Origin: Rhodospirillales bacterium BBD 1991-14
GTDB taxonomy: Bacteria > Pseudomonadota > Alphaproteobacteria > Kiloniellales > Kiloniellaceae
Direction: 5' to 3'
Assembly: GCA_001657395.1 (NCBI GenBank)
Contig: LYSY01000001.1
Coordinates: forward strand, 806,001-870,000
DNA: 64,000 nt
The notes beneath the pieces are model-generated. The model saw only the letters and a program-made list of their open reading frames with translations. It searched no databases and was not told the DNA's origin. The position numbers and the translations under genes are program-made. Shown here one piece after another: positions 31,972-43,551 of this stretch (position 1 is the stretch's first letter; each line of letters starts with the position of its first letter).

Positions 31972-33654
31972 ATGTCCTTTCTCTCCGGATTCCTGAGTTT
32001 CTTCGGCGGGTTCACCCGCTTCGGTAGCAATGATGACGACGTCATTACGCGGTTCCTGGGCGGCCGCACCGTCGCCCGTGACGGCGACGACACGGTTGTC
32101 GGCGGTTTCTTCAATGATGTGGTTTACGGCGGCGATGGCAACGACCTGATCCGCGGCCGCACCGGCCACGACCGCCTTTTCGGCGAAGACGGCGACGACG
32201 ATCTGCGGGCCGGCCGCGGCGACGACACCCTGGTCGGCGGCAGCGGCAACGACCACCTGCGGAGCGGCTTCGGGGCCGACCGCTTCGTTTTCGACCCCTC
32301 CAATCCGGATGAAGGCGACGATGTGATAAAGGACCTGGATATCGCTGCCGGCGATCGCCTGGTCCTGAACGCCGCCGACGTGCTGCGCTCCGCCCCGGGC
32401 GTCGCCTCCGCCTCGCCCTTCGGCGACCCCGGCGCCGTCGAAGGCGCGGACCTGGATGAAGACCCCGACTGGACCATCAGCGCCTCTCCCGACGGCTTTG
32501 TCGTCGTCGGGCATCCCGGCGGCACCATCACCATCGAGGGGCTCGCATTCTCGGATGCGCTGCGCTTTGACGACCTTCTGCCCGCCATCGAAATCGCCAA
32601 TGCCCAGGCCGGCGATGCCGGCGACGACCGTCTGCGCGGCGGGCGCGACGACGACTTCCTGAACGGCCTGGCCGGCGACGACCGGCTCTTGGGCCGGGCC
32701 GGCGACGACGTCATCCTGGGTGGGGAAGGCAACGACACGCTGCGCGGCGGGCGCGACAACGACCTCCTGAACGGAGGCCTCGACGATGACCGTGTCATCG
32801 GAAACAGCGGCGACGATACCCTGATCGGCGGCAGCGGCGACGATCATCTGCGCGGCGATGCCGGCATCGACCGCTTCGTCTTCGACCCCAGCAATCCGGA
32901 CGAAGGCGCCGATGTCGTCCAGGACTTCACCCTGGGCGAAGACCTGCTGGTGCTGTCGGCGGCCGACATCGCCAAGGCGACGCCGGAGATCCTCTCGGCG
33001 CTGGCCAGTGGCGATACCTCGGCCATCGCCGGGGCCGCCGAGCTGTTGACCGCGCTGGACAACAGCCCGGAATGGAGCATATCCGGAGCACCGGGCAGCA
33101 ACAATCTGACGGTCGGCCATCCGGGCGGCACCATCGAGTTCGAAGGGCTGGCATTTGCCGGGCAGAGTTTCGTCGATCTGGCCGGTGCCTTCGATGCCGC
33201 GGCGCTCAACCTGCAGAACGGCACTGGTGGTGACGAGACGCTGGCCGGCGGGCGCGGCGACGATCTTTTGAACGGCGGCGCCGGACTGGATCTCCTGATC
33301 GGCGACAGCGGCGACGACCTGCTGGTCGGCGGCGCTGATGCAGACCTCTTCCGCTTCGACCCCTCCAATGGCAACGAGGGTGACGACATCATTGCCGATT
33401 TCAATCCCGGCGAGGGCGATCTCATCCAACTCGCGGTCCAGGACGTGATCGACTCCCTGGAGCCGGAGCTGCTGGACGACGGCCTGCAACTGACCGATCT
33501 GGATACCTCGGCCAATTGGGACTTCAACGCCACCCCCGGCGGCGATGCGACCATCACCCATACCGGCGGCACCATCACCCTGGTCGGCCTGGGCGACGCC
33601 CTGGGCGGGGTGACCAGCTTCAACGACCTGAGCGGATCTCTGGACCTGGTGTAA
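31972..33654 (+). CDS. RTX (hemolysin-type calcium-binding) repeat protein
   Basis: The 560-residue acidic protein is built of Ca-binding nonapeptides of the form GGxGxDxLx in three clusters (about 53-100, 214-298, 417-455). After each cluster comes a copy of a longer module: residues 104-190, 301-395 and 459-540, each with RFxFDPSNxxEGxD, then a W, then a GGTI-hydrophobic-GL(A) ending. No N-terminal signal peptide is seen, as expected for type I secretion via an uncleaved C-terminal signal, but no type I exporter is nearby. GAGGAGC precedes the ATG. Likely a secreted or surface protein of unknown target. Confidence 0.85.
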   Translation: MSFLSGFLSFFGGFTRFGSNDDDVITRFLGGRTVARDGDDTVVGGFFNDVVYGGDGNDLIRGRTGHDRLFGEDGDDDLRAGRGDDTLVGGSGNDHLRSGFGADRFVFDPSNPDEGDDVIKDLDIAAGDRLVLNAADVLRSAPGVASASPFGDPGAVEGADLDEDPDWTISASPDGFVVVGHPGGTITIEGLAFSDALRFDDLLPAIEIANAQAGDAGDDRLRGGRDDDFLNGLAGDDRLLGRAGDDVILGGEGNDTLRGGRDNDLLNGGLDDDRVIGNSGDDTLIGGSGDDHLRGDAGIDRFVFDPSNPDEGADVVQDFTLGEDLLVLSAADIAKATPEILSALASGDTSAIAGAAELLTALDNSPEWSISGAPGSNNLTVGHPGGTIEFEGLAFAGQSFVDLAGAFDAAALNLQNGTGGDETLAGGRGDDLLNGGAGLDLLIGDSGDDLLVGGADADLFRFDPSNGNEGDDIIADFNPGEGDLIQLAVQDVIDSLEPELLDDGLQLTDLDTSANWDFNATPGGDATITHTGGTITLVGLGDALGGVTSFNDLSGSLDLV

Positions 33655-35102: not shown

Positions 35103-35786
35103 CTAATCCGCCGTCACGCGGCGCTCCACCGGAACGAAGTACAGGTGGTCCTGGTCTTCCTGTGCCAGGTGGCAGGCAATGCAGAACTCCACCCGCTGGG
35201 CGCCCTCGCCCCCCGTTTCACCCAGGAACGCACCGGTTTCGGAGATCATCGAGTAGCGCCAGTCGCCGGTCACGTAGTTGAAGCCCGGGGCCATCTTCTC
35301 CATCACGAACAGCGGGCCCAGGGTGATCTCTCCCGCGTCGGTGACCACGAAGCTGTCCTTGACCACCACGGACCCCACAGGCAGCTGCCCGGCTTCCTCG
35401 TAGCGGCCGTAGTCGCGGGCCTGGGCATTGGCATAGTTGCTGACGTAGCGCCGCCCGTGCGTCATGGATTTGTAGGGTGCGCTGCTGTAGCGCTGCCAGG
35501 TCTGGTAGTCCGCGACCACGCGGCTGCCGCTGCGGGCATAGACGGCGGCCAGTTCGTCGGCGAGGCCCAGATAGATCTCCGCGGCTTCCCGGTCGCTGAG
35601 AACAGCGGGATTGGGGACCCGGAAATGCCGGCGTGGTTGTTCGGTGCTGCCGCCGAGACCTTGGACGGTCTGCAGCGGTTCAGAGACGCTGCCGGCAGGC
35701 GAAGCGTTCTCCGGCTCGCCTGCTGTGGCACTCTGGGCGAGCCCGGCAGCAATCACGGCAACCATGACGGCGGGGCGTATGAGCAT
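35103..35786 (-). CDS. Cytochrome P460-like c-type heme protein (copy 1)
   Basis: The 227-residue exported protein has a Sec signal (MLIRPAVMVAVIAAGLAQSATA) and one heme-attachment site CIACH at residues 202-206. The domain shows WQRYSSAPYKSMTHGRRYVSNYAN, GQLPVGSVVVKDSF, GPLFVMEKMAPGF and GDWRYSM, features I associate with the cytochrome P460/cytochrome c-prime-beta fold. Known P460 proteins act on hydroxylamine or NO; activity here is unproven. The ATG at 35786 has AAGGAGG nine bases upstream. Two paralogues lie at 39693 and 41078 on the same strand. Confidence 0.83.
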   Translation of the reverse strand: MLIRPAVMVAVIAAGLAQSATAGEPENASPAGSVSEPLQTVQGLGGSTEQPRRHFRVPNPAVLSDREAAEIYLGLADELAAVYARSGSRVVADYQTWQRYSSAPYKSMTHGRRYVSNYANAQARDYGRYEEAGQLPVGSVVVKDSFVVTDAGEITLGPLFVMEKMAPGFNYVTGDWRYSMISETGAFLGETGGEGAQRVEFCIACHLAQEDQDHLYFVPVERRVTAD

Positions 35787-35953
35787 ACGCGCATACCTCC
35801 TTACAGCGACCCCAACTCTTCCCTTCGATCCTGCATAGGGAAGATATGGGGTGCCGCAGACTACAAGAAAAGGTTGTAGCGGGCCGCAATGCTCGCCGCG
35901 GAGCAACAGTCGCAGCGGCGCCGCACTGGCGCTGCGGCCGACGACCGCTGCCG

Positions 35954-39164: not shown

Positions 39165-39683
39165 TTAGTAGCCCGCGCGCAGCCGGCGGCTCAGGGTTGC
39201 CGCCGCCTCGCGTTGCGCCGCTGTCAGGTCGCTTTGCAGGGCGTCGCGCCGCTCCGCAGCCCATTGGCGCCCCTGCTCGGCTGCCAGGGAGAACCAGGCC
39301 AGCGCCTGGACGCGGTCGCGTGCAAGGCCCCAGCCTTGTGCGTACATCTGACCGAGGTTCATCTGGGCCACCGCATCGCCCCGCTCCGCCGCCTGTCGGT
39401 ACCAGCGCGCCGCGGCGGACAGATCGCGGGCAAGACCGCTTCCGCCGGTCTCCAGGATGCCGGCAAGGGCGACTTGAGCCTGGAGGTTGCCGGCCTCGCC
39501 AAGAGGAAGCCACTCGGCATAGGCCGTGCCCAGGTCGCCGGCGTCGTAGGCCTCGACACCTTCTGCGAAGTCCGCAAAAGCAGGCCGCCCCGACCCGAGG
39601 GTCGAGGCGGCCATCGCCAGAAGGATCGAGAAGACGGCCCGGCCCACGGCGGCGATGCGGCGCCGCCCGGGCCGGACAGCCAT
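39165..39683 (-). CDS. Exported Sel1-repeat protein
   Basis: The 172-residue protein has an N-terminal signal (AVFSILLAMAASTLGSGRPAFA) and three Sel1/TPR-like helical repeats: AYDAGDLGTAYAEWLPLGEAGNLQAQVALAGIL, AARWYRQAAERGDAVAQMNLGQMYAQGWG and ALAWFSLAAEQGRQWAAERRD (each given in family-typical pieces AYAEWLPLGEAG, RWYRQAAERGDA, AWFSLAAEQG). Such periplasmic scaffolds mediate protein contacts. It begins nine bases after the Cys-rich P460-like gene, so the two are almost certainly co-transcribed and the Sel1 protein may assist that heme protein. Confidence 0.87.
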   Translation of the reverse strand: MAVRPGRRRIAAVGRAVFSILLAMAASTLGSGRPAFADFAEGVEAYDAGDLGTAYAEWLPLGEAGNLQAQVALAGILETGGSGLARDLSAAARWYRQAAERGDAVAQMNLGQMYAQGWGLARDRVQALAWFSLAAEQGRQWAAERRDALQSDLTAAQREAAATLSRRLRAGY

Positions 39684-39692
39684 CGATCCGGC

Positions 39693-40889
39693 CTATCTCA
39701 CCCGGTACTCCTCGGGCAACAGAAGGACATTGTCCTGGTCCGGGGTCACCGACTGATGGCAACCGATGCAGAAGGCAACGTTGTCCGATCCGGCGCCGTT
39801 CGTCGTGCCGAAGATGGAGCCGTTCGGCATGATCAGCGTGTAACGCCAGTCGTCGCTATCCGGGTTGAAGCCGGCCTGCATCTTCTCCATCAGGAACAGC
39901 GGCCCGACCGAGACGCCGCCCTTGGCGTTCACTGCAAAGCTGTCCTTGGCCAGCTTGGCGCCCTGCGGAAAGGTGCCGGCGCTCTCGTAGTTGCCGTAGG
40001 CCTTCGCCGCCGTGTTTCCCCAGTTCTGGACGTAGCGCCCGCCGTGGGTATCAGACACGTAGGCCTGGGTGCTGTAGCGGCGCCAGTTGGTGAAGCCGGC
40101 GGCATCGCCCTTGTCCGACTTCGCGTAGGCGGCCTTCATGGTCTCGAACATGCAATCGTAGGCAGCCAGCGCTTCCGCATCGGTCAGTTCAGGGGCTGCC
40201 CCTGCTGCGCAAGGATTACAGGGATTGCAGGGATTACACGGATTGCAGGGGTTGGCCGCTGCACAGGGATTGCAGGGATTGGCTGCGCAGGGGTTGCAGG
40301 GGTTGGCAGCAGCGCAAGGGTTGCACGGGTTCGCCGCGGCGCAGGGGTTGCACGGGTTCGCCGCCGCACAGGGATTGCACGGATTGGCCGCGCAAGGATT
40401 ACAAGGGTTGGCAGCGGCGCAAGGATTGCACGGGTTGCAAGGATTCGCTGCAGCACAGGGATTCGCCAGGGCCGCAGCCTGGATGCGCGGGATCGCGCAG
40501 GCCGCAACAGTGCCCCCGCCGCCGGCCGCGCAGGGATTGCACGGGTTACATGGGTTGCATGGGTTCGCTGCTGCGCAGGGATTACAGGGATTGGCCGCGC
40601 AGGGATTGGCCGCGCAGGGATTGGCCGCGCAGGGATTGCACGGACTCGCCGCAGCACAGGGGTTGCACGGGTTCGGGGCGGCGCAAGGGTTGCAGGGGTT
40701 CGCTGCCGCGCAGGGGTTGCACGGGTTTACCGGCTTCTTCGCCGCGCAGGGATTGCAGGGGTTACAGGCAGCCCGGGCCATGGGGACGCCCACCTGCCCT
40801 GTGGCAATCAGTTCGCCGGCCGCCACGCCGGCCAAGACCACCAGGGGAACCATGGCAGTCGACATGAGTAGGCGTTTCCTGGACTTCAT
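39693..40889 (-). CDS. Cytochrome P460-like heme protein with NPC cysteine arrays (copy 2)
   Basis: This 398-residue exported protein has a signal peptide (about 1-40), then two low-complexity arrays of Asn-Pro-Cys separated by Ala-Ala(-Ala): residues 42-120 with 19 Cys and 143-227 with 21 Cys. A Gly-rich linker (121-142) with one further Cys lies between them. A P460-like domain follows (about 234-398) with [36 protein letters not shown] and DDWRYTL, ending in heme site CIGCH at 374-378. The arrays suggest metal binding or a disulfide-linked stalk; neither is shown. It is followed after nine bases by the Sel1 gene. I know of no characterised protein with this architecture. Confidence 0.85.
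40209..40766 (-). repeat. NPC-encoding tandem repeat
   Basis: About 40 copies of a 9-base unit coding Asn-Pro-Cys are arranged singly, in pairs, fours or fives, with Ala-Ala spacers. Copies differ at third positions (AAC/AAT, CCC/CCG/CCT/CCA, TGC/TGT) while the tripeptide is kept, which points to selection on the protein rather than recent slippage alone. Confidence 0.93.
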
Positions 40890-41077: not shown

Positions 41078-41758
41078 CTACCGGAGATTGAGGAACTGAA
41101 CCCGAAACTCCTGCGGCACAAAGAACAGCTGCTGCTGATCTTCGCCCACGGCTTCGTGGCATGTGATGCAGAACTCCACCCTTTCGTTACCCTCGCCATT
41201 GGTGGTTCCGAACAGGCTGCCGTCCGGCATGATCATGGTGTAACGCCAGTCGTGCGCCTCGGGCCGGAAGCCCTTGGGCATCTTCTCCATCAGAAACAGC
41301 GGGCCGGTGAAGACATCGCCGCGCTGCGTCACGGCAAAGGAGTCTTTTGCAAGGACGGAGCCGACGGGCAATTCGTCGGCGTTCTCGTAGTCGCCGTAGG
41401 CCCGCGCAGTGGCGTTGGCGTAATTGTTGACGAAACGCTGACCGTGGGTGGCGGAGCGGTAAGGCGCAGAGTTGTAGCGGCGCCACTCCACGAAGCGCTC
41501 CGCGACCGGATCGTGCGACAGTCGATAGCCCGCAACCATGCGGTCGCGGACTTTGTCGTAAATCACCATCGCATCGGCCGGCGACAGCTTCGCCGGGCGG
41601 TCGACCGAAAAGTGGTGTTCCGGCCTTGAGAACTCAGAGGATTGTCCGTGGGCTGCGGCGGGTATCGCGAAGAGCACCACTGCAAGGGACCGGCCAAGAA
41701 GCCTCAGAATTCCTGGCCTGAAGCCAAGGCAGCCACCTGGCAACGACATAGGGACCAA
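41078..41758 (-). CDS. Cytochrome P460-like c-type heme protein (copy 3)
   Basis: The 226-residue exported protein has a signal (RLLGRSLAVVLFAIPAAAHG) and heme site CITCH at 197-201. The domain [55 protein letters not shown] and HDWRYTMIMPDGSLFGTTNG is closest to copy 2 (shared GTTNGxG near the end) and also matches copy 1. The start is likely TTG at 41758, with GGGAGG five bases upstream; an ATG three codons in lacks a site. It is the middle of the three copies and lies between the cytochrome c pair and copy 2. Confidence 0.84.
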   Translation of the reverse strand: MVPMSLPGGCLGFRPGILRLLGRSLAVVLFAIPAAAHGQSSEFSRPEHHFSVDRPAKLSPADAMVIYDKVRDRMVAGYRLSHDPVAERFVEWRRYNSAPYRSATHGQRFVNNYANATARAYGDYENADELPVGSVLAKDSFAVTQRGDVFTGPLFLMEKMPKGFRPEAHDWRYTMIMPDGSLFGTTNGEGNERVEFCITCHEAVGEDQQQLFFVPQEFRVQFLNLR

Positions 41759-41952: not shown

Positions 41953-42348
41953 TTACTCCGCAGGCTTGAACTGCAGAAGGTAGGCGATCACGTCAGCCCT
42001 TTCCTCAGGCTTCCTGAGCCCGGCGAAGGCCATTTTCGTGCCTTTGACGGCTTTGCGCGGTGCCTCGAGATAAGCGCCCAGGGTCTCTGCGTCCCACACA
42101 GCGCCGCCTTCGCCATAGGCGATCATGGCCTTGGAGTATTTGTAGCCCTCAACCGTGCCGACCGCCCGGTCGACAATGTTGTACAGGCTCGGGCCGACCT
42201 TGTTCTTGCCCTCTTCAACGGCGTGGCAGGCTTTGCACTTGCGGAAGACTTTCTCACCGTTGGCGGCATCGCCCTCGGCCAGGGCGGGCATGGTATGAAA
42301 CGCGGCGGCGGCGAACACCACTGCGACAAGCGAGCTCTTTACTCCCAT
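41953..42348 (-). CDS. Class I c-type cytochrome (c2/c550-like), copy A
   Basis: The 131-residue periplasmic electron carrier has a signal peptide (VAVVFAAAAFHTMPALA), heme site CKACH at 38-42 and the likely axial Met in KGTKMAFAGL. KVGPSLYNIVDRAVG and WDAETLGAYLEAPRKAV are typical of mitochondrial-type cytochrome c2. GGAG lies seven bases before the ATG. It is a tandem paralogue of the gene at 42509 (shared NGEKxFxKCxACHxxEEGKxKVGPSLY). It may pass electrons to or from the neighbouring P460-like proteins, by inference from context. Confidence 0.93.
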   Translation of the reverse strand: MGVKSSLVAVVFAAAAFHTMPALAEGDAANGEKVFRKCKACHAVEEGKNKVGPSLYNIVDRAVGTVEGYKYSKAMIAYGEGGAVWDAETLGAYLEAPRKAVKGTKMAFAGLRKPEERADVIAYLLQFKPAE

Positions 42349-42508: not shown

Positions 42509-42898
42509 TTACTCTGAGAGGCTCTTCAGGTAAGCGATCATATCGGCGCGGTCCTCAACCTTCTTGAATCCGGGAAAGGCCATCTTTGTCCGCTTTACAA
42601 CGTCTTTGGGCTTCGTCAGCCAAGCGTCCAGGGTCTCCGCGTCCCAGACCGCACCGGTCTGGCCGTACTCCACCAAGCCCTTGGAATACCTGAACTTAGG
42701 CACCTGACCCGGGGTCGCCCCGAAGATCTTGTAAAGGCTCGGACCGACTTTCTTCTTGCCTTCCTCCAGGGAGTGGCAGGCCGCGCACTTCTTGAAGAGC
42801 TTTTCGCCGTTGGCGGGATTTCCCGCCGCCGTCGACGGCGCCGAGAGGCCAAAGGCAATCGCAGCCGCCATGAGGCCCGCTGAAACGATCCGCAGCAT
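42509..42898 (-). CDS. Class I c-type cytochrome (c2/c550-like), copy B
   Basis: The 129-residue exported cytochrome has a signal (MLRIVSAGLMAAAIAFGLSAPSTAA), heme site CAACH at 38-42 and axial Met in RTKMAFPGF. It aligns along its whole length with the cytochrome 160 bases downstream. Charged surface residues differ (more Lys here: KKVGPSLYKIF, KPKDVVKR), which could mean different partners. I chose the ATG at 42898, eight bases after GGGAG; the ATG at 42913 would add five residues. It is divergent from the small Cys protein at 43177. Confidence 0.92.
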   Translation of the reverse strand: MLRIVSAGLMAAAIAFGLSAPSTAAGNPANGEKLFKKCAACHSLEEGKKKVGPSLYKIFGATPGQVPKFRYSKGLVEYGQTGAVWDAETLDAWLTKPKDVVKRTKMAFPGFKKVEDRADMIAYLKSLSE

Positions 42899-43176
42899 AT
42901 CTGTCACTCCCATCCAGTTTTTGACTCCTGCTTCCGGACTGCAGGCTTTGGACGCGGGGTCCCCGCAATCCCGCCCCACCATTCCTCCGAGGATCGCGTC
43001 TGGGACGCAATTCAAAGCCCCGGGGTTACATCTCAACAAAGCGTGAGGGCCCGCTGATCGGAAGGCGAACCGTTCGCGCCGGCGCCCCGACTCAGAGTCA
43101 TGTGGCCAATGTCCGCCTCGCGGGCTCGGGCAGAGGTCTGGAAGTTCCTGAACTGAGACTGGAAAGGGTTTTCACG

Positions 43177-43551
43177 ATGTCGACGCCGTCTCTGGCAAAG
43201 ACCACAACCTTCGCAGTTACCGCCGCATTTGCAGTCCTCTTGGCCGGCCCGGCTGCCGTCAAAGCAAACGACACCCCAGCAGGCAATGACTACGTCCAGG
43301 TTGCAGTCCAGCAACTCAAAACACCTCAGCGCGAGACGCTGCCGCCGCGTCCGACTGCAGGCCCTCACAAACTGAACACGCAGGGCCAACGCGGCACGCT
43401 GAACACCTCGGGATGTGATGACGGCGCTGCCAAGCAGTCCTACGAAGGGTCGTGCCATCAGTATCCGGAGTACGAGGCCACCGGCGGCTGTCAAAGCGAC
43501 ACCACCCAGTCGTCGTATCCGGGCAACTGCGCGAACAGCAGCGAGCCCTGA
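43177..43551 (+). CDS. Small exported four-cysteine protein
   Basis: I do not recognise this 124-residue protein. A Sec signal (TTTFAVTAAFAVLLAGPAAVKA) is followed by a polar Gln/Pro/Thr-rich segment and a C-terminal part with two related units: GCDDGAAKQSYEGSC and GCQSDTTQSSYPGNC, each GC, four or five residues, QS(S)Y, x, G, x, C. The cysteines may form two disulfides or bind a metal. It is divergent from cytochrome copy B with a shared 278-base control region and ends before a terminator. Possible part of the heme-protein group by position only. Confidence 0.72.
   Translation: MSTPSLAKTTTFAVTAAFAVLLAGPAAVKANDTPAGNDYVQVAVQQLKTPQRETLPPRPTAGPHKLNTQGQRGTLNTSGCDDGAAKQSYEGSCHQYPEYEATGGCQSDTTQSSYPGNCANSSEP

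Follow-up and report, generated by a model that had tools for sequence, protein, structure and literature searches.

A tandem x-Pro-Cys array of an exported P460-type cytochrome recurs on unrelated exported proteins of many bacteria and probably holds metal ions or electrons

The window analysed here, a stretch of 64,000 nucleotides from Rhodospirillales bacterium BBD 1991-14 (contig LYSY01000001.1, positions 806,001 to 870,000), contains on its minus strand an intact coding sequence with an ATG start (39693..40889) for an exported P460-type cytochrome of 398 amino acids with two arrays of Asn-Pro-Cys (NPC) units. A signal peptide of about 40 residues (40770..40889), whose cleavage site between MARA and ACNPC was placed by eye, is followed by array 1 (residues 42-120; 40530..40766), a linker with the motif C-x-[VI]-P-R-[LI], delimited from the sequence and a comparison of linkers (residues 121-142; 40464..40529), array 2 (residues 143-227; 40209..40463) and a P460/c'-beta heme domain (residues 228-398; 39696..40208), all on the minus strand. 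The c-type heme attachment motif CIGCH occupies residues 374-378 (39756..39770, minus strand), where a first-pass annotation had located it; its description of the overall layout agreed with the sequence, and its total of 44 cysteines in a single exported heme protein was confirmed on recounting. Its figure of 41 cysteines in the two arrays was correct as a total for this region, but the arrays themselves hold 40 (19 + 21 by sequence count) and the remaining one is Cys131 of the linker (codon 40497..40499, minus strand). The other three are Cys246, in a YDC motif (codon 40152..40154, minus strand), and Cys374 and Cys377.

The arrays are extremely simple in composition: array 2 is written with Ala, Asn, Pro and Cys only, and array 1 with the same residues plus two Lys, one Val and one Ser. 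The protein contains 38 NPC tripeptides and one SPC, where 0.68 NPC would be expected from its own composition and at most six were found across 2000 shuffles. At the DNA level, the NPCNPCAA pattern occurs 17 times in the source genome, and its reversed control does not occur there. The possibility of extra heme sites was rejected: without a single His, the arrays of this protein add no CxxCH.

Directly upstream of the array gene on the same strand lies an array-less P460 paralogue (41078..41758), identified with Pfam, in a tandem arrangement that is kept in relatives; a second array-less P460 paralogue, also identified with Pfam, is found at 35103..35906 (minus strand). A gene for a Sel1-repeat protein (39165..39683, minus strand; Pfam) starts 9 bp after the array gene, and a similar neighbour was seen in four loci among the matches listed. 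Two cytochrome c genes on the minus strand (41953..42348 and 42509..43039) each had the c-550 CycA family as their best NCBIfam match, below its cut-off. Between the cytochrome c genes and a SUF regulator, positions 43102-43551 encode a small exported protein with several cysteines and without a Pfam match, and an RTX calcium-binding repeat protein (PF00353) is encoded at 31972-33654.

The first-pass annotation had called the heme domain P460-like. By sequence the match of the 398-residue protein to PF16694 is borderline (28.7 bits against a cut-off of 27), and single-sequence searches of PDB sequences with the heme domain and the paralogue returned chance matches only or none. An AlphaFold model of the domain, built from an alignment of 34 domains (mean pLDDT 91.7), had cytochrome P460 or c'-beta structures as all ten of its best PDB matches, the best being 6hiu (E 1.3e-6, TMq 0.55). 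The predicted fold thus clearly places the domain in the cytochrome P460/c'-beta superfamily and bears out the earlier call. The superfamily also shares the CxxCH motif, whose two Cys and His are invariant in 34/34 aligned domains, and Lys315 (codon 39945..39947, minus strand), likewise invariant in all 34. The position of the heme-Lys cross-link in P460 proteins is given in Table 2 of PMC11928373, and Lys315 appears from the alignments to occupy it; in weak alignments, with residues counted by hand and an offset of 20 assumed for 7s5o, Lys315 falls on Phe61 of the Thermus thermophilus cytochrome c'-beta 7ead (E 0.2) and on a Met of the Nitrosomonas europaea protein 7s5o (E 0.0021). For the distal carboxylate that serves hydroxylamine oxidation in P460 proper, these two alignments give differing positions, Glu335 or about Gly340. 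We know of no structurally solved P460/c'-beta protein that carries a cysteine array, as the 398-residue protein does. In the part of the P460 review PMC11928373 available to us, the words Cys-rich, repeat, N-terminal and fusion are absent.

We compared 93 P460 domains from the collected loci. An equivalent of Cys246, which the model and alignment place in helix 1 of the heme domain, was present in 48 of 55 array-bearing domains versus 2 of 38 array-less ones, and in 44/44 proteins with the linker versus 6/49 without it (linker motif C-x-[VI]-[PE]-[RSL]-[LIMV]). Three of the six linker-less exceptions are cut upstream, and the other three, L140 and the array-less proteins of G444 and G445, carry a different lone Cys ahead of the domain. 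This co-occurrence suggests a Cys131-Cys246 disulfide, with Cys246 as the predicted partner of the linker cysteine. However, a tree of the P460 domains required only seven linker changes and six Cys changes, with two independent pairs on well-supported branches; a test of independent pairs had no power, and shared descent could account for much of the pattern.

The peptide sequence of the array is under strong purifying selection, as the first-pass annotation had proposed from third-base differences between units; codon usage and dN/dS against orthologues both support it. The 39 array units are spelled by 13 different 9-mers, with all four Pro codons and both codons for Asn and for Cys in use. 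Array dN/dS was 0.026, 0.021 and 0.005 in the three of four orthologue pairs for which it was computed (none for L006), with the caveat that array dS is inflated by unit shuffling, and the heme domain gave 0.046, 0.065 and 0.051 in orthologue pairs. A unit-wise pN was set aside, because the units had been chosen by their Pro-Cys and it is low by construction. Because the first residue varies in the related genome G455, whose units include CDPC, CAPC and CGPC, the conserved pattern is x-Pro-Cys.

A family search with the protein matched 22 of 23 genomes; genus g5 has array-less P460 only, in 8 of its 9 genomes. The NPCNPCAA pattern was found in 34 of the 61 genomes of the order and in 6 of 398 genomes of a phylum sample, two of them belonging to the same order; a search of plasmids returned no match. 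Array-less and array-bearing P460 genes lie less than 2 kb apart on one strand in 17 genomes of the order and on opposite strands in G018, by a tally that was read by hand (for G433 and G436 with additional searches). The array is carried by 55 of the 93 P460 domains in the collected loci, a figure that gives no prevalence since most of these loci had been retrieved by way of the array or the 398-residue protein, and its length in P460 proteins ranges from 7 to 44 x-Pro-Cys units, some cut by locus ends. Homologues thus keep the array with varying copy number, a check that the first-pass annotation had called for, and its idea of an odd single protein fails, as many P460 homologues bear an array and it occurs on unrelated exported proteins as well. 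In one locus of G455 (L263:348-1625, plus strand), a class III cyclase domain (PF00211) is fused to P460 (PF16694), and P460 may be the sensor there.

A scan of named genomes with the NPC pattern yielded at least 117 stretches, a sample and a lower bound, 95 of which were named as Pseudomonadota (alpha, gamma, beta and Mariprofundia). Arrays among the matches listed also occur in Acidobacteriota, Ignavibacteriota, Nitrospinota, Poribacteria, Methylomirabilota and others. Array ORFs with at least four NPC units, 139 in all, were present in 110 of the 117 listed stretches, although a few of these, L089 and L144 among them, seemed doubtful on visual inspection. Classified by profile, with single members confirmed by Pfam (PF21342 for the SoxA/TsdA type), the listed ORFs comprised 65 array-only proteins, 40 P460 proteins, 21 SoxA/TsdA-type cytochromes, 5 YceI proteins and 8 that are cut by locus ends. 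The YceI-domain proteins with NPC arrays (L155, L105, L177, L084 and L148, with L177 assigned by profile only) come from Ignavibacteriota, KSB1 and Poribacteria. As read from these sequences, the same cysteine string is present on several unrelated exported proteins in many bacteria. It may precede the carrier, follow it or flank it on both sides in the listed loci, and in one P460 protein (L131:3557-4351, minus strand) an NPC array lies inside a beta-hairpin of the heme domain in addition to the N-terminal array. Array-only and array-cytochrome ORFs occur together in 26 listed loci, on one strand in 26/26 and within 703 bp of each other in 25/26; in L086 and L194 the two ORFs overlap, and a frame shift within a single gene may explain the pair. 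The first-pass annotation would have given way if homologues commonly carried the array and its function were already published: homologues do carry it, but no published function for NPC arrays was found in the literature searched.

From the first to the last x-Pro-Cys, Ala, Cys, Pro, Asn and Lys account for 77% of residues in the 139 listed ORFs (a figure that includes the carrier where arrays flank it on both sides), and the commonest Cys spacing is 3, that is, CxxC. Thiols would be the main ligands, since His, Asp and Glu make up only about 1% each. Of the 139 listed ORFs, cut ones included, 75 have an even and 64 an odd total of cysteines, and complete intramolecular disulfide pairing therefore seems not to be selected. 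The variable number of units and variable position of the array are easier to reconcile with a module that supplies ligands in bulk than with a fixed scaffold.

We clustered the ORFs within 3 kb of the 110 listed loci (simple longest-ORF rule, single-linkage BLAST clusters) and checked one to three members of each cluster with Pfam. DUF6969 proteins were near 42 of the 110 loci and FGE-like proteins near 23, followed by histidine kinases (14), YeeE/YedE proteins (12; one member scanned, PF04143) and multiheme cytochromes (12). Cupredoxin-like proteins, so named by eye and without a Pfam match in the two members scanned, were near nine listed loci, as were FAD pyridine-nucleotide-disulfide oxidoreductases (one scanned), and a DUF302 cluster (one scanned) was near four. 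DUF6969 or FGE-like genes lay within 3 kb of 52 of the 110 listed loci, with neither present in 58, and they were found at 20/40 P460, 10/21 SoxA/TsdA, 4/5 YceI, 15/39 array-only and 3/5 unclear listed loci. As they are present whatever the carrier, they go with the array and not with the heme. A Pfam/NCBIfam scan of 137 other neighbours gave, among the families listed, six arsenite-methyltransferase-like proteins and four redoxins. The arsenite-methyltransferase-like genes lie near arrays in L109, L131, L141, L167, L170 and L190, with Mariprofundaceae accounting for five of these six; arsenite has an affinity for thiols. Beyond the cupredoxin-like proteins, the first 25 recurrent neighbour families listed contained no gene for copper export or copper regulation.

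Genomes of the order carry at most two DUF6969 genes, so the proximity of DUF6969 to the arrays is far above chance. An obligate partnership with DUF6969 was nevertheless rejected: among genomes of the order, 32 contain both the array pattern and DUF6969, 2 the array only, 14 DUF6969 only and 13 neither. In the 30 DUF6969 loci listed, no Cys-rich ORF lay closer to DUF6969 than about 1.5 kb. A DUF6969 model (pLDDT 93.5, from 36 of 42 cluster members) had no PDB match at E<1, and its fold was dropped as a functional clue, with no function inferred from it. One DUF6969 protein (L226:9398-10156, minus strand) looks cytoplasmic, and an alignment of 36 relatives has six invariant His.

The FGE-like proteins have a hydrophobic N-terminus in 20 of 23 cases by a crude rule, and are thus probably exported. 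The first Cys of their CxxC is present in 20/23 and the second in 16/23, and this pair presumably differs from the two catalytic cysteines of FGE, which means that these proteins may use a cofactor other than copper. Two of these proteins (L167 and L170) lie more than 1.5 kb from the array and may be of another kind. In the source genome, the DUF6969 and FGE-like genes are adjacent to each other on contig C13, away from the arrays. Across the 61 genomes of the order, 30 have both an FGE-like gene (E<1e-100) and an array-bearing P460, 4 the FGE-like gene only (G017 and G443-G445, the latter three without arrays), 1 the array-bearing P460 only (G455) and 26 neither; this tally was made by hand, counts G433 and G450 as array-bearing although they are cut by contig ends, and covers related genomes, such that a Fisher value overstates their independence. 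Three of the 26 (G422, G038 and G423) have array-only proteins and no strong FGE-like match.

Several known systems resemble the arrays in part. Metallothioneins consist of many CxxC thiols and little else, a likeness in both thiols and scarcity of other residues; the array protein differs in being exported, in having Pro before nearly every array Cys and in the fusion of arrays to heme or YceI domains. Neither a metallothionein family nor a bufferin family (DUF2282 or other) gave a Pfam match in the 398-residue protein or in one array-only protein. SoxAX acts on a cysteine carrier, and the arrays resemble this system in placing such a carrier beside a heme, although we know of no motif shared by the array and SoxY. 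The SoxA/TsdA domain PF21342 is one of the carrier domains of other arrays, whereas the carrier in the 398-residue protein is P460, and PF21342 was absent from it in a Pfam scan with E up to 1. Bufferins (Buf1/DUF2282, Buf2 and EGKCG/oxazolin; MNIO-modified RiPPs) are likewise exported and Cys-rich and include both small free forms and fusions to cytochrome c and FGE (PMC12452194), but their motif differs from the NPC array. Section 14 of that paper describes them as copper-chelating, with fusions of Buf1, Cytochrom_C and FGE-sulfatase domains, and FGEs as cuproenzymes. MNIO (PF05114) had one match in the source genome, on contig C9 beside a bufferin-like gene and not by the arrays, and an MNIO-like motif searched as a regular expression was absent from 690 neighbour ORFs of the listed loci. 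With no family match and no MNIO by the arrays, we rejected the array as an MNIO-made bufferin. The bufferin-like operon of the source genome (L271:31-2811, minus strand), unlinked to arrays, comprises an MNIO assigned by family and a precursor, a DUF2063-like and a DoxX-like gene assigned by eye.

Overall, the array is probably a store of metal ions or electrons on the outer side of the cell membrane. Our preferred model, to which we give a probability of about 0.4, is that CxPC units form a modular exported thiol array that would buffer a soft metal, with copper(I) as the first candidate, in the vicinity of redox proteins. In this model, an exported heme domain of P460/c'-beta fold would bear a mobile module of tandem x-Pro-Cys units, with CxPC pairs and few other likely ligands; the Cys131-Cys246 disulfide would dock the linker on the heme domain and leave the arrays as two flexible arms. 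Through their thiolates these arms would take up numerous soft metal ions, copper(I) foremost, and so act as a metal buffer next to the redox protein. The small array-only products of the adjacent gene may be a free form of the same buffer, and the FGE-like protein and DUF6969 may load, modify or maintain the array. A soft-metal buffer is our first choice because of the thiol-only ligands, the CxxC spacing, the variable number and position of units, the free and tethered forms, the FGE-like and cupredoxin-like neighbours and the bufferin precedent. Several observations count against it: the listed neighbour families include no copper exporter or regulator, the CxxC of the FGE-like proteins presumably differs from that of FGE, the DUF6969 and FGE-like pair of the source genome lies on a contig without the arrays, some genomes have arrays without a strong FGE-like match or the reverse, and neither partner is near 58 of the 110 listed loci.

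A close rival, only somewhat less probable, is a thiol-redox or sulfur relay. CxPC pairs would then alternate between the dithiol and the disulfide state, or bear sulfane sulfur, and pass electrons or sulfur to and from the attached heme, in analogy to the action of SoxAX on its cysteine carrier. The CxPC pair is of the thioredoxin type, and retention of Pro and Cys with a variable first residue, as in the G455 units, would suit such chemistry, although in thioredoxin it depends on the fold and the arrays have no known fold. Known SoxA/TsdA members form S-S bonds, and the second carrier family belongs to this type (PF21342); together with the YeeE/YedE neighbours it would serve a sulfur or redox role equally well, and the FAD oxidoreductases and the DUF302 cluster point the same way. 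However, YeeE/YedE genes are near only 7/40 P460 and 1/21 SoxA/TsdA listed loci, and we know of no sulfur chemistry for the P460 or YceI carriers.

Less probable still is a structural tether: disulfides between arrays would build an envelope stalk or mesh to which the heme domains are anchored, and array-only proteins would fill it in. The co-occurrence of the linker Cys and Cys246, the adjoining array-only and array-cytochrome ORFs and the resemblance by eye of three array proteins (L120, L080 and L095) to lipoproteins would be consistent with such a tether, but array position and length are very variable, the parity of Cys number looks random, and an array inside the heme-domain hairpin of L131 suits a flexible module better. 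A chance product, or a low-complexity expansion by slippage that gave the array no function of its own, is very improbable: unit number does differ between close relatives and one of them (L005) has the damaged units NPR and NHC, but array dN/dS is 0.005-0.026 in the three computed pairs, synonymous codons are scrambled across units, and three carrier families in several phyla have retained the array along with the same neighbours.

Soft-metal buffering remains our preferred model, and a broader proposal, possible rather than probable, is that CxPC arrays make up an exported thiol system in its own right, transferable between proteins and served by dedicated maturation partners, namely DUF6969 and a probably exported FGE-like enzyme that would modify or metal-load its cysteines, and that it is carried by at least three unrelated extracytoplasmic proteins (P460 heme, SoxA/TsdA heme and YceI) in several phyla as a built-in metal or electron store for heme proteins. 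A simple module that is repeated up to dozens of times and selected on unrelated exported proteins would be expected to have a definable chemistry, and the array ties an unexplained branch of P460, SoxA/TsdA-like cytochromes and YceI to DUF6969 and FGE-like proteins as putative partners. If the arrays store copper, they would constitute a periplasmic metal store beyond the bufferin families; if they store electrons or sulfur, they would amount to a novel means of wiring heme proteins.
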